Below, one piece after another: positions 57,766 through 63,293 of a DNA stretch of 64,000 nt. The notes beneath the pieces were generated by a model. The model did no database searches. It saw only the letters and a list, made by a program, of their open reading frames with translations, and was not told the origin of the DNA. Source of the DNA: Megasphaera paucivorans. Its GTDB lineage: Bacteria > Bacillota > Negativicutes > Veillonellales > Megasphaeraceae. Made by a program: the position numbers and the translations under genes. Numbering within the stretch: position 1 is the first letter of the stretch; every line of letters begins with the position of its first letter. The DNA lies in contig NZ_FNHQ01000004.1 in the NCBI RefSeq assembly GCF_900103535.1, positions 1-64,000 of the forward strand, written 5' to 3'.

Positions 57766-57955
57766 CATTCCCATCGCTCGCAGGTCAATCGGTGATTATG
57801 AATCAGGCAGTTCTTCTGACTTAAGTTCATTGCTTTGCTGCGCCTTCCCGGAATACTCCAGTGACATTGTGCAACGCGGCTCACTTTTACAGCGGCGGGA
57901 CCGTGCCGGATTTCAACCGGCTTATCTATTAAGCCCATAGGGGCACCTGATCTAC
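57766..57955 (-). promoter_or_regulatory. Cobalamin (adenosylcobalamin) riboswitch
   Basis: On the minus strand the conserved aptamer features appear in order: GTGCCCC, AAGCCGGTTGAAATCCGGCA, CGGTCCCGCCGCTGTAA, the B12-box-like TGTCACTGG, CCGGGAAGGCG, and the closing GTCAG-AGAACTGCC segment. It controls the eight-gene transport and remodelling operon from btuF to the cbiR-like gene. Confidence 0.95.
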
Positions 57956-57960
57956 TATAT

Positions 57961-58338
57961 ATAGTTGTAAAAACAGCACGGATAAGTTAGCTAAACAACA
58001 TGTTCAGTTCCTTACCGGTACTAAAAGAATACTATGAATTTCTATTATGGCCAAATAAACCCATATATTCTCTTGTCGTACATATACCAAGCTTGACCTG
58101 TTTCCATCTATGTAAGCCACCCTGGCATGTAAATTATACACTGAACGTAAAGATAAATGCAATATTTTTTTATAAATATCATGAATTATACAAGTGAAAT
58201 TCTATTATTTCAAAAAAAATGCAAATTTAATTTGTGCCAAAATACAGTAAGCATCTACAATGAGCATCTCCTGGGTGTACTGTCCAGATAGAGAATATCA
58301 TCTAACATGTATTTTTCTTATGATCAAGTAATTAAAAC
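57961..58338. other. Intergenic stretch between the riboswitch and the AT-rich island
   Basis: No gene is visible. It should hold the promoter for the riboswitch transcript near 57960-57985 (a weak TATATA with no convincing -35) and the 3' trailer of the neighbouring island gene. Composition becomes clearly AT-rich after about 58150. Confidence 0.5.
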
Positions 58339-60873
58339 TCATACGGATATATCATGTTGGTTGATAATATTGAGTTTTTCTAATTTGAAATTTGATTCAG
58401 AAAGACAATTGATCCAAAGCGTAACCATTTGAAAAATTTGCAATTTAATCTTATCATTTGAAGATTCAGCTGAAGAGACAAAATTTATGTTCTTCATCTT
58501 ATCATAAATTTTACGGCGTTTATATTCAAACTGAATCAGTACATTTAACTCTTGCTCTGAAAAAATTCTATTATCAGCTTTACTATCAATATATACTACA
58601 TCATATTGTATCAACAAAATCGCTTCCGGAATATTCTTAACATGATCTCTATAAAAACTTTTTGGACTTTCTCCTAATTCTTCCCACTTTAAAGAAACGT
58701 CATCACCTGTAACTACCATAGCATCATCTAATGCATTAAATTTATTTCGTAATAGTTCAGCGATTGCATCAATTTTTTCGCTGAAAATAGCGTCATGCAT
58801 CATATATCGTAAGAATACATTTTCATCAAGATGAAGCTTTAACTGTTCTTTGGGCGGCAGGAAAGACTGTTCCCATTTTTTAGCCTGCGTTAACATGCTC
58901 ATATCCATAATCGCTTCTACGGACCTCGATTCATGCTTATATTTAGGTATTTTCAACATGGCTCTGAGAACACCATTATCAATTTGTGCGGTACCTTTTT
59001 CGTTGATTAAATGAGGGAATTTTTGTTCAAGAAGCGATCGAATCAACATCGCTCGTCTAATCATAAAGAATTGATCGAATTCATTGACTTGATTTGGGCC
59101 AAGTATATTAATATACCCTCTTAACCGACTAATAAAATCAGGGCCTTTACTTTCTTTAAACTTATTCAAAAATAGTTGTTTTTCTTTTTCAATTTCAATT
59201 TTTTCTCCACAAAATTCAGCAAAAGAACTACTGGTCCCTCCAACAAAAACAAATATAGCCTTGCCGATTGGGTGAAAACTTTCTTCATCTTTATAAATTC
59301 CATCCTGCATAGGTGACAGAAAATATTTTAACCACCCCCAGCTTTCATGAAAATACGAGTCAAATTCATCAAAAATAACAAAGGGTATTTTTCCTCGCAG
59401 ATTGGAATCACTTATTTGATGAAATGCCTTCTGTAATTCGAGTACTGTTGAAAATTGAGAAATATTATAGCTCATTTTTGTTATGCTTTCAGAAAATTTA
59501 CTGATAGCCATTTGATTGAGACCATAAGATTTACCGGAACCCGGAGTACCAAATATTGCAATAGATAAGGGTCTGTTAGCGTTTTTTGATACAATATATT
59601 CCGAAATTAAGTTATGTATGGTTCGATAACTTTCAATTTCAATTCGATCTATTGTTTTTAATTTTCCGAATTTAGCGGTAGGGATATGCATTAGCACATT
59701 TTCTTCCCCATTTTTGACCAAATCAAATGCCATTTGTGAAATGCTGGCAGAACTTTTTTCTTGTAGAATACACCAATTATCCTGATATTCCCTATTCAAA
59801 ACATTTGGTATTTTTACATCTTGTACATATTCAGGATCTGTATCTTTAATTAAATTTTGTTCAAACATAAGAGGATTGGGAAACGAAGAACTGTCCGGTT
59901 TTTCTCCAAAACCATAGTAAAAATACTTTCTTACAGCACTAATTCCTTCTCGAATTCCTTGAAAAATTAAAATGGGAAGCTCTTCTGCTTTATATTCTAA
60001 AAATGCAGTTGAAAATCCAGCTACAAAAGCAGAAACAAGACCATACATTTCTCCATCATTGTTATTCCTGAAATCTCCTTCAAACTCATACGGCAAAAAA
60101 TACAAAAACGATTGGTGCGTATCATCATTTTCACAATAAATGACACCTTCCAATCCAAAAATAACAATAAGATGTTTACATTTTAATAAAAATGATAAAT
60201 TAGGATTATTTTCTAGCTGCCAAGTAAAATCATGCGCCGTTTTTTCCCAAGATATGCTTTTGCTGATATTGACCCCTTTTGAACGAAGATCATCCGCATT
60301 AATAATAATAATAGTTTTATCCCTATGATACCTGAATAAGTGCTGTAAAAGAGGATTTCCTTCTATGGGATTATCCATTTTATAAAAAACAACAGGTGTT
60401 ATCCCTGTACTTTTGATAGCCAGCGGCCAATACCCGGCATGTTGATTAAATCCATTATTTTCATCATCAATAACAACAATGGGAGCATCAATTACATCTT
60501 CTTCCAAGGGTAATACATTTAAATTATTGTTTGTTGTTCCACCTGAAAACCCCATAAATCTATATAGTCTATAAACTTTAGATTCTTTTTGATTAGTTGA
60601 ACGAGGATATGGCTTTATTTCAACAAAGGAATACAAAAAATGATCATGATAGAAGCTATTCTCTTTAGGAATAACTGGAGAAATAATAGTTTGATCCGTT
60701 GCCAAAGCAATCATTTTTGCTAAAAGAAATGCCGCACCCGGTACGGATAACTGATGTAAATTAATGCTGTTTTCCCAATTGAGTTTTTTTTCTTCCTGCG
60801 GAAGTATATTCCAGAGCAATACGTTGACACATATATCGCCTGTAACAATAATTTTTATTTTTTGCTTTTCCAC
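58339..60873 (-). CDS. Large multidomain P-loop ATPase: PfkB-like N-terminus, AAA+ core, RyR-like C-terminus
   Basis: No named gene is recognised. Residues 1-330 resemble a degenerate PfkB/ribokinase fold: IIVTGDICVN at the start, HLIVIFGLEGVIYC, and GEMYGLVSAFVAGF, which parallels the GAGDAFVAGF active-site helix but lacks the catalytic Asp. After a linker (IPTAKFGKLKTIDR) comes an AAA+-type domain with Walker A FGTPGSGKS (Lys near 451), Walker B FVIFDEFD (near 505), and VFVGGTSSSF as sensor 1. Near residues 725-800, WEELGESPKSFYRDHVKNIPEA followed by FSEQELNVLIQFEYKRR resembles bacterial RyR-type ligand-binding domains. The GTG at 60873 follows GGAGG by eight bases. Composition is AT-rich. 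A nucleotide- or ligand-sensing signalling role is inference. Confidence 0.75.
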   Translation of the reverse strand: MEKQKIKIIVTGDICVNVLLWNILPQEEKKLNWENSINLHQLSVPGAAFLLAKMIALATDQTIISPVIPKENSFYHDHFLYSFVEIKPYPRSTNQKESKVYRLYRFMGFSGGTTNNNLNVLPLEEDVIDAPIVVIDDENNGFNQHAGYWPLAIKSTGITPVVFYKMDNPIEGNPLLQHLFRYHRDKTIIIINADDLRSKGVNISKSISWEKTAHDFTWQLENNPNLSFLLKCKHLIVIFGLEGVIYCENDDTHQSFLYFLPYEFEGDFRNNNDGEMYGLVSAFVAGFSTAFLEYKAEELPILIFQGIREGISAVRKYFYYGFGEKPDSSSFPNPLMFEQNLIKDTDPEYVQDVKIPNVLNREYQDNWCILQEKSSASISQMAFDLVKNGEENVLMHIPTAKFGKLKTIDRIEIESYRTIHNLISEYIVSKNANRPLSIAIFGTPGSGKSYGLNQMAISKFSESITKMSYNISQFSTVLELQKAFHQISDSNLRGKIPFVIFDEFDSYFHESWGWLKYFLSPMQDGIYKDEESFHPIGKAIFVFVGGTSSSFAEFCGEKIEIEKEKQLFLNKFKESKGPDFISRLRGYINILGPNQVNEFDQFFMIRRAMLIRSLLEQKFPHLINEKGTAQIDNGVLRAMLKIPKYKHESRSVEAIMDMSMLTQAKKWEQSFLPPKEQLKLHLDENVFLRYMMHDAIFSEKIDAIAELLRNKFNALDDAMVVTGDDVSLKWEELGESPKSFYRDHVKNIPEAILLIQYDVVYIDSKADNRIFSEQELNVLIQFEYKRRKIYDKMKNINFVSSAESSNDKIKLQIFQMVTLWINCLSESNFKLEKLNIINQHDISV

Positions 60874-60927
60874 ATTAAACACCTCCCCACATATGAACTG
60901 ACATTTTTATATTGAACAATGTGACAT

Positions 60928-62184
60928 TTATTTATTATTGGATTGCTTTAACACATTAATTAACTTCAACCAAACAACTTGAGTCCGCTTAAAATCCTCA
61001 TAATGTTTTTTCACATGTAAATGAAAATAATCAAACTCATCTAAAATGAGTTCAAACTTATCTTCATTAAAATAATTACATATACAAGGCACCACATGTT
61101 TAAGTTTTTCTCTGATTAACGCTATTTCGTTTTCATAATTTTTATTTTGTGTTACGTAGAGTAACAGTGGTTTATACCGAATCCATCCAATAGCCACTTT
61201 TAAAAATCTTTGAGTAGTTGTTCCTGGATCAATCTTTATACTTTTTAGATTACCCGGAAGTGAACCAAAAAGTAATTGTTCACAGGATAAAAAGCTATCA
61301 TGAAACGTATAACAAGGGATTTTTTTGACAACTCTATTACAAATACACGTACTTAAAAATGTGTCTTCTCCTCTTGCTCCTGGGGGATTATAAAACGGAA
61401 ATATTTTATCAATTTTTGTTAAATTGAATCCTAAATTAGAACCAGAAATAAATTTCATTCCATTCGTTTCCTTAACATGTATCGTTTTATTATTAGTTTT
61501 TATGTTAACATCTGCATACGTAATTCCGCCATCCTCCATCTTTGTTTTTACAGATTGCCAGTTGATGATGTCATTACTTACCGCCTCGATAAAAATCCGA
61601 AAATCATTTTCTGAAAGTTTAGAATTAAACTCCAATTGCGGCATTGGTGAAATATATCCACAATGATACCCGTGTGTTATATCAGCATACTTAAGATTTT
61701 GGATATGTGTCAGCAGTACATTTTCTCCCTTCCATAAAATAGTATTATTCATTTTAATATTTGCTATTGGATATTCATCATCATCAAAAAAAACAAGATA
61801 ATCCATTCCTTTTTTTATAGCAAAATATAAAACCGCATTTCTTTTCATGGCATATCCCTCGCCAAATATTAGTTCGGCTTCTTCTAATGTGACAATATTT
61901 TTTTTGACCAATGTTTCTATTTCGCTTAGAATCACAGTATTATTTAAATAATGAATGGAATCCATCATTTCTAATATTTTAGGATCCGTAATGGTGTAAT
62001 CATTTACAACTGTATTTGTATAATGCAAATCATATGCAATAAACAGATGAATCCCTATATTATCATTATGTATCAATCCCGATTCTTTCCAATTGTGCAC
62101 ATACATTTTTATTACATTTTTAAAATTTTTGCGGCCTGTCACAAAACCAATACCAATATTTATTTTTTTTTCTTTACTATCCAA
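60928..62184 (-). CDS. GT-A-fold glycosyltransferase-like protein
   Basis: The protein (about 418 residues) has features of a GT2-like nucleotide-sugar transferase. NIGIGFVTGRKNFKNVIKMYVHNW begins the fold. DYLVFFDDDEYP near residue 130 supplies a metal-binding DxD, and GARGEDTFLST near 273 resembles the acidic-base ED motif. No membrane helix is seen. The longer frame starts at 62277, but a TTG at 62184 with AGGAGG nine bases upstream starts at the conserved first strand. The acceptor is unknown. It lies 54 bases upstream of the large ATPase gene in the same direction and shares its AT-rich composition, so the two probably form one unit. Confidence 0.7.
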   Translation of the reverse strand: MDSKEKKINIGIGFVTGRKNFKNVIKMYVHNWKESGLIHNDNIGIHLFIAYDLHYTNTVVNDYTITDPKILEMMDSIHYLNNTVILSEIETLVKKNIVTLEEAELIFGEGYAMKRNAVLYFAIKKGMDYLVFFDDDEYPIANIKMNNTILWKGENVLLTHIQNLKYADITHGYHCGYISPMPQLEFNSKLSENDFRIFIEAVSNDIINWQSVKTKMEDGGITYADVNIKTNNKTIHVKETNGMKFISGSNLGFNLTKIDKIFPFYNPPGARGEDTFLSTCICNRVVKKIPCYTFHDSFLSCEQLLFGSLPGNLKSIKIDPGTTTQRFLKVAIGWIRYKPLLLYVTQNKNYENEIALIREKLKHVVPCICNYFNEDKFELILDEFDYFHLHVKKHYEDFKRTQVVWLKLINVLKQSNNK

Positions 62185-62498: not shown

Positions 62499-63254
62499 CT
62501 ATGTATAATAAAAGTTACTTTCAAAACAATTATGTTCTCCCTGTTTACCGATAACAGTAATTTTTTGTTCTTTAAGATTAACTGCACCAAATAGATAAAT
62601 TGTTTCATCTTTTATCGTTTCTTTTGAATAGTTTATAAAAAAATCGGTAAAATCTTTTTCTTGATATATTTCAGGTAAACAATCTATAGCAAACGCACAA
62701 TACCGTGAAGCATTCATATGTCCATTTATATCTATATCTGAAAAATAAACATACCGTTTGCCAAGAAAAACTAAGTCATGCGGTATACTAATTTTCCCCA
62801 GTTTCCTATAATAGCCGCTTTCTTGTCTTGTACTCTCTGGACGCAGTGTAAATTTTTTTGTCCGGATAATTTTATGTGATTTATAATCAACAAGCAACCA
62901 TGAACTGTATCCTTTTATAAGAATTTTTTTATTTTGCGCGGTTATATTATACGCGCGTGTCAATTGAAACGGTCCCGGCTTTTCCTCCCATGTGCTAATT
63001 GTGATACGATCATTTGCACAAGGAAGTGAACAAAAATGAAACATAATACGAGAAAGTAAAATAGTAACACCATGATTATACAGTATTTTTCTTGATAACC
63101 CTTGTCGGGTATAATCTTCATCGGCAATGCTTGTAGCGAGACGTAATAATTCAAAAATATTAAGCTGTCCCCGAACATTACATTGACAAAGATCAATATT
63201 TATTTCATTATAAAATGTAAGATTTTTATCATACCAGTGATTATATGTAATCAT
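62499..63254 (-). CDS. Acyl-ACP thioesterase (FatA/FatB-like, PF01643)
   Basis: This double hot-dog-fold enzyme releases fatty acids from acyl-ACP. The first domain has CQCNVRGQLNIFELLRLATSIADED and TWEEKPGPFQLTRAY. The second has VYFSDIDINGHMNASRYCAFAIDCLP, whose D-x-N-G-H-x-N motif holds the catalytic Asn and His region. At 251 residues it is of normal bacterial length. The ATG at 63254 follows GGAGGG with a four-base gap. The upstream GTG at 63266 is inside the Shine-Dalgarno region. It has its own promoter and lies between two copies of a hairpin repeat, in AT-rich DNA. Confidence 0.9.
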   Translation of the reverse strand: MITYNHWYDKNLTFYNEINIDLCQCNVRGQLNIFELLRLATSIADEDYTRQGLSRKILYNHGVTILLSRIMFHFCSLPCANDRITISTWEEKPGPFQLTRAYNITAQNKKILIKGYSSWLLVDYKSHKIIRTKKFTLRPESTRQESGYYRKLGKISIPHDLVFLGKRYVYFSDIDINGHMNASRYCAFAIDCLPEIYQEKDFTDFFINYSKETIKDETIYLFGAVNLKEQKITVIGKQGEHNCFESNFYYT

Positions 63255-63293
63255 TTTTCCCTCCACACTTTCAACCCTTTTTCTTTATGATAA

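Follow-up and report, generated by a model that had tools for sequence, protein, structure and literature searches.

A patchily distributed bacterial AAA+ ATPase with predicted pseudokinase and RyR- or SLOG-type C-terminal domains, encoded in Megasphaera paucivorans

SLOG domains are predicted or reported to sense or process cADPR-like nucleotides in TIR systems, and SLATT domains have been assigned as effectors in published analyses (PMC9503650). Here we describe a gene of Megasphaera paucivorans, located in the first 64,000 nucleotides of contig NZ_FNHQ01000004.1 (hereafter the window), whose protein is predicted to combine a ribokinase/PfkB-like pseudokinase domain, an AAA+ core, and a C-terminus related to RyR domains, with a putative SLOG-type domain taking the last position in one clade of its homologues. 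A search of the literature for this pseudokinase-AAA+-RyR/SLOG architecture found no description of it, and the proteins apparently represent an undescribed family of bacterial ATPases.

The gene occupies positions 58339..60882 of the minus strand as a frame of 847 codons that opens with a GTG at 60882, while the plus strand at the same coordinates contains stops throughout. A second in-frame GTG at 60873, preceded by a Shine-Dalgarno-like GGGAGG, would give 844 codons and the stop; this start matches the 845-residue frame of a preliminary description of this DNA, which was right about the open frame but is corrected here as to its strand. Scans of the 847-aa protein against Pfam, NCBIfam, and PADLOC returned no model above cut-off, and an AlphaFold model built from three sequences had a mean pLDDT of 42. 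A 99% identical copy is present in a second Megasphaera genome, a MAG (L002), and an 81% identical copy in another genus of the same family (L019). These two copies, together with a whole-gene dN/dS of 0.12 between the two Megasphaera-family genera, show that the gene is no chance open reading frame. When calculated by part, dN/dS was 0.16 for the N-terminus, 0.04 for the AAA+ core, 0.22 for the C-terminus, and 0.36 for the RyR region, placing the strongest selection on the AAA+ core and leaving the RyR region to evolve faster. Given the values for the whole gene and for the AAA+ core, we consider the gene to be maintained under strong purifying selection.

As had been claimed before, the gene lies in an AT-rich island, with a G+C content of 0.29-0.32 over about 58-63 kb vs 0.40-0.47 on both sides. 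Upstream of the gene, the same island contains an acyl-ACP thioesterase gene (62499..63266, minus strand; Pfam PF01643/PF20791), which is not seen at the sister locus within that locus's short contig. On the other side of the ATPase gene, a cobalamin riboswitch (57789-57965, minus strand; RF00174, 111 bits) precedes genes for a periplasmic substrate-binding protein and an ABC transporter. The composition of the island, the long branch occupied by the Megasphaera pair in the phylogenetic tree, and the loss of the RyR core described below would all be expected if the gene were decaying or selfish cargo of the island with no present function in its host, but a frame that is intact in three genomes and dN/dS values of 0.12 overall and 0.04 in the AAA+ core already make this account very improbable.

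The AAA+ core is of the Clp/Lon kind and spans residues 395-692 (58807..59700; this and all motifs that follow are on the minus strand). It contains the Walker A motif GTPGSGKS (59527..59550), the Walker B motif VIFDEFD (59359..59379), a candidate arginine finger in the sequence SRL (59122..59130; R586, aligned with FINRI of ClpB), and a sensor-2-like arginine in the sequence ESRS (58921..58932; R653, GARP in ClpB). Both Walker motifs and both arginines occur in order and are invariant across 22 diverse homologues, and together with the alignments they bear out the complete Walker A/B core of the preliminary description. In HHalign comparisons the core ranked closest to Lon (E 1e-8), followed by ClpB (2e-5), RavA (3e-5), and ClpA (3e-5), and comparison with the D2 domain of ClpB alone gave an E-value of 4e-6; PDB sequence matches, although weak, were of the Clp/Hsp104/torsin kind and agree with HHalign. 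The DEFD...GWLxYFLAPMQDG block corresponds to the LDDG segment of ClpB.

Residues 1-345 (59848..60882, minus strand) are predicted to form a ribokinase/PfkB-like pseudokinase domain. A Pfam scan of this domain gave no match, the signal lying below Pfam detection, and a search of the N-terminal profile against PDB sequences recovered no kinase; profile-profile comparison alone revealed one. Global HHalign of the N-terminal profile to an alignment of PfkB proteins taken from related genomes gave an E-value of 4.9e-8 and a probability of 93%, compared to 0.07 or worse for controls in the same global mode (the profile reversed, and 12 shuffles of its columns), and adding E. coli RbsK to the PfkB alignment resulted in an E-value of 6e-8. 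Local profile-profile alignment to PfkB recovered the expected register with P about 5e-4 to 7e-4, against 0.02 or worse for four unrelated profiles compared with the same domain. Its alignment to RbsK is collinear between the GD motif and the GAGD region, where GEMYGLVSAFVAGF (residues 277-290; 60013..60054, minus strand) forms the counterpart of the PfkB GAGD signature in both the family and RbsK alignments, with the catalytic Asp replaced. HHalign sets the catalytic Asp255 of RbsK opposite an Ala of the reference homologue; in the window protein this position is a Ser according to the family alignment, and the catalytic Asp is absent from every homologue aligned (about 40 were collected). 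Because the alignment is collinear with clean controls and the Asp is lost family-wide, sequence comparison identifies the N-terminus as a PfkB-derived domain predicted to lack the usual phosphotransfer chemistry, consistent with the degenerate, sugar-kinase-like N-terminus and altered Asp region noticed earlier.

An RyR-like C-terminus had also been proposed, which is supported as a statement of ancestry but not as one of an intact sensor in this protein. The Pfam RyR model (PF02026) does not match the window protein, in which the EHxxW...GW...LVPW core is missing. Alignment to the intact RyR domains of relatives delimits a degenerate RyR domain at about residues 774-838 (58369..58563, minus strand), where the first and last helices are retained, the EHxxW and GW core is lost, and the net loss amounts to ~13 residues. 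The same core loss is found in L002 and L019, and a sequencing error was ruled out as the source of the deletion, which is common to three genomes. Relatives, among them members of the same class, carry canonical PF02026 above cut-off at their C-terminus (L004, E 1.1e-14; L017, E 7.7e-12), an RyR match at E 0.1 or better was found in 10/22 homologues scanned, and a profile of the relatives' C-terminus matched RyR structures. Judged by its collinearity with these true RyR domains, the C-terminus of the window protein descends from a domain that is intact in its relatives. A PF02026 search of the M. paucivorans genome gave no match, and its controls gave none either.

In one clade (support 100/99), a putative SLOG-type domain stands where most branches have RyR. 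This C-terminus resembles YpsA, labelled a SLOG family by Pfam, with a weak E-value of 0.08, and tblastn searches related it to two proteins from TIR neighbourhoods: one with DUF4231, next to a TIR gene (E 5e-16), and one with DUF1273, from within a TIR-caspase-TIR cluster (E 5e-8). We take DUF4231 and DUF1273 to belong to the SLATT and SLOG groups. Another member of the family, encoded on a 117-kb contig from a viral collection (L020, 8249-11143), has a C-terminus that by eye is neither RyR nor SLOG.

With a rough probability of 0.5, we propose that the end domains of the ATPase gate a soluble AAA+ motor of the Clp/Lon type, and the swap between RyR and SLOG is the best evidence that such a motor is gated by a ligand. 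The N-terminal ribokinase-like domain, having lost phosphotransfer, would serve as a binding site for either a small molecule or a partner protein, and the C-terminal RyR domain of most branches, or the SLOG domain of another, would bind an adenine-nucleotide or ADP-ribose-like ligand. Binding may then alter how the AAA+ ring assembles or turns over ATP, and the ring in turn would remodel a target. Since the RyR part has decayed in Megasphaera, gating there probably depends on the pseudokinase and on a putative operon partner, a glycosyltransferase-like enzyme. The ligand-gated machine anticipated by the preliminary description is consistent with the architecture of the family as a whole, which looks like that of a ligand-gated ATPase, but the intact RyR sensor it assumed is not found in the window protein itself.

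The glycosyltransferase-like gene lies upstream and is co-directional (60928..62184, minus strand), with a TTG start after AGGAGG, and its assumed enzymatic character is based on DDDEYP and RGED motifs; searches of Pfam, NCBIfam, and PDB gave no match to a known GT family. The pair is kept in L019, where the glycosyltransferase-like gene has 77% identity and a dN/dS of 0.16, and the spacing between the two genes is 45-54 bp. Members of the glycosyltransferase-like family occur in 20/398 Bacillota genomes, where they are mostly solitary. There is a second copy elsewhere in the M. paucivorans genome (G000:C32:112394-113632), and in two related genomes the same protein adjoins a second glycosyltransferase-like protein of 515 residues (L110, 4152-6952; L111, 7829-10665).

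A glycosyltransferase partner had been expected for this ATPase, and a glycosyltransferase-like neighbour is indeed present, but the two genes are adjacent only in the Megasphaera family and unlinked in other genomes; clustering of the neighbours of 40 loci led us to reject a constant partner of this kind outside that family. Four of the six ATPase genomes in the phylum sample also encode the enzyme (hypergeometric P 7e-5, ignoring kinship), and in one family the ATPase is found in 5/8 enzyme genomes vs 16/54 overall. The co-occurrence in the phylum sample, the conservation of the closely spaced pair across two genera at 77-81% identity, and purifying selection on both genes could indicate a regulator of glycan synthesis, in which the motor and the enzyme form a two-gene module for surface or protein glycosylation. 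We regard this as unlikely, given that most ATPase genomes in class-wide and family-wide surveys lack the enzyme, several enzyme genomes lack the ATPase, and both genes may have been transferred as a unit; moreover, the activity of the enzyme is assumed from its motifs, and the surface-modification reading is derived entirely from this putative function of the neighbour.

The ATPase is a single gene with a patchy distribution. Profile searches of whole genomes detected it in 6/398 genomes of the phylum and 17/250 of the class, profile searches of two other families found it in 16/54 and 8/46 genomes, and a protein search of its own family found it in 3/17. Distant relatives were recovered by tblastn on a Methylobacterium and a Streptomyces plasmid; one plasmid copy adjoins SIR2 and transposase genes and another adjoins integrase genes. 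A search of phage records for the ATPase gave no match, and viral contigs gave one. When the neighbours of the 40 loci were clustered, conserved partners appeared only among close relatives, and generic transporter and regulator families were the neighbours most widely shared; neither a conserved defence partner nor the defence-island enrichment that had been suggested was found. The PADLOC matches listed among the neighbours were rejected as defence genes, as they appear to be generic ATPases with transporter or DNA-binding roles. At one locus (L017, 7812-13066), three adjacent genes encode an RyR membrane protein, a TIR protein, and a pseudokinase-AAA-RyR protein, possibly a complete signalling or defence cluster.

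A defence role of the ATPase is possible. More specifically, it may be an anti-phage or conflict ATPase that uses its RyR/SLOG end to sense a nucleotide alarm raised by TIR, SIR2, or phage activity, its motor then bringing about arrest or blocking the invader, a reading that agrees with the patchy presence in the class and the two families, the settings of the plasmid copies, the transposase fragments beside the sister locus, the adjoining TIR and RyR-membrane genes at L017, and the SLOG-type tail common to TIR-linked systems. We nevertheless consider it rather doubtful, as the neighbourhoods hold no conserved defence partner and the families they share most widely are generic, the gene has a stable position beside NAD-biosynthesis-like genes in one genus and ordinary chromosomal settings at other loci, and in many loci its G+C content differs little from that of the flanking DNA.

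In this motor protein, the RyR tail of one branch and the SLOG tail of another hint that RyR and SLOG read similar ligands, offering a direct and testable lead on the ligands of bacterial RyR domains. More speculatively, these proteins may belong to a widespread and so far undescribed group of signal-gated Clp/Lon-like motors that use a dead ribokinase domain together with an exchangeable RyR or SLOG domain to read nucleotide-type messages; if true, this would tie prokaryotic RyR to ADP-ribose-like signalling and provide a prokaryotic model for the RyR ligand. The analysis also brings to light a pseudokinase-AAA+ family for which no curated model was found, together with an adjoining undescribed glycosyltransferase-like family.

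Several known systems share parts of this locus. The glycosyltransferase-like neighbour has weak matches to the TET-associated glycosyltransferases (PF20691) and the phage glycosyltransferase phrog_2456, but these are not significant and it represents a family of its own. The N-terminus follows the PfkB/ribokinase family, with the difference that members of the present family lack the catalytic Asp and fall below Pfam detection. Bacterial RyR proteins (PF02026) and ryanodine receptors share the canonical RyR domain that relatives carry at the same place, whereas the window and sister proteins lack the EHxxW/GW core, and the family is otherwise unrelated to the channel. The SLOG/YpsA sensors of TIR-linked nucleotide systems (PMC9503650) have a putative counterpart in the sister ATPase clade, where a domain that resembles them replaces RyR, although most ATPase loci have no TIR or SLATT partner and the window protein has no SLOG domain. 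Lastly, Clp/Hsp100 proteins and Lon, with their HCLR-type core, share Walker A and B, the MQDG/LDDG segment, the arginine finger, and the sensor-2 Arg along ClpB D2, but in place of a protease domain the present family has ribokinase-like and RyR/SLOG ends.
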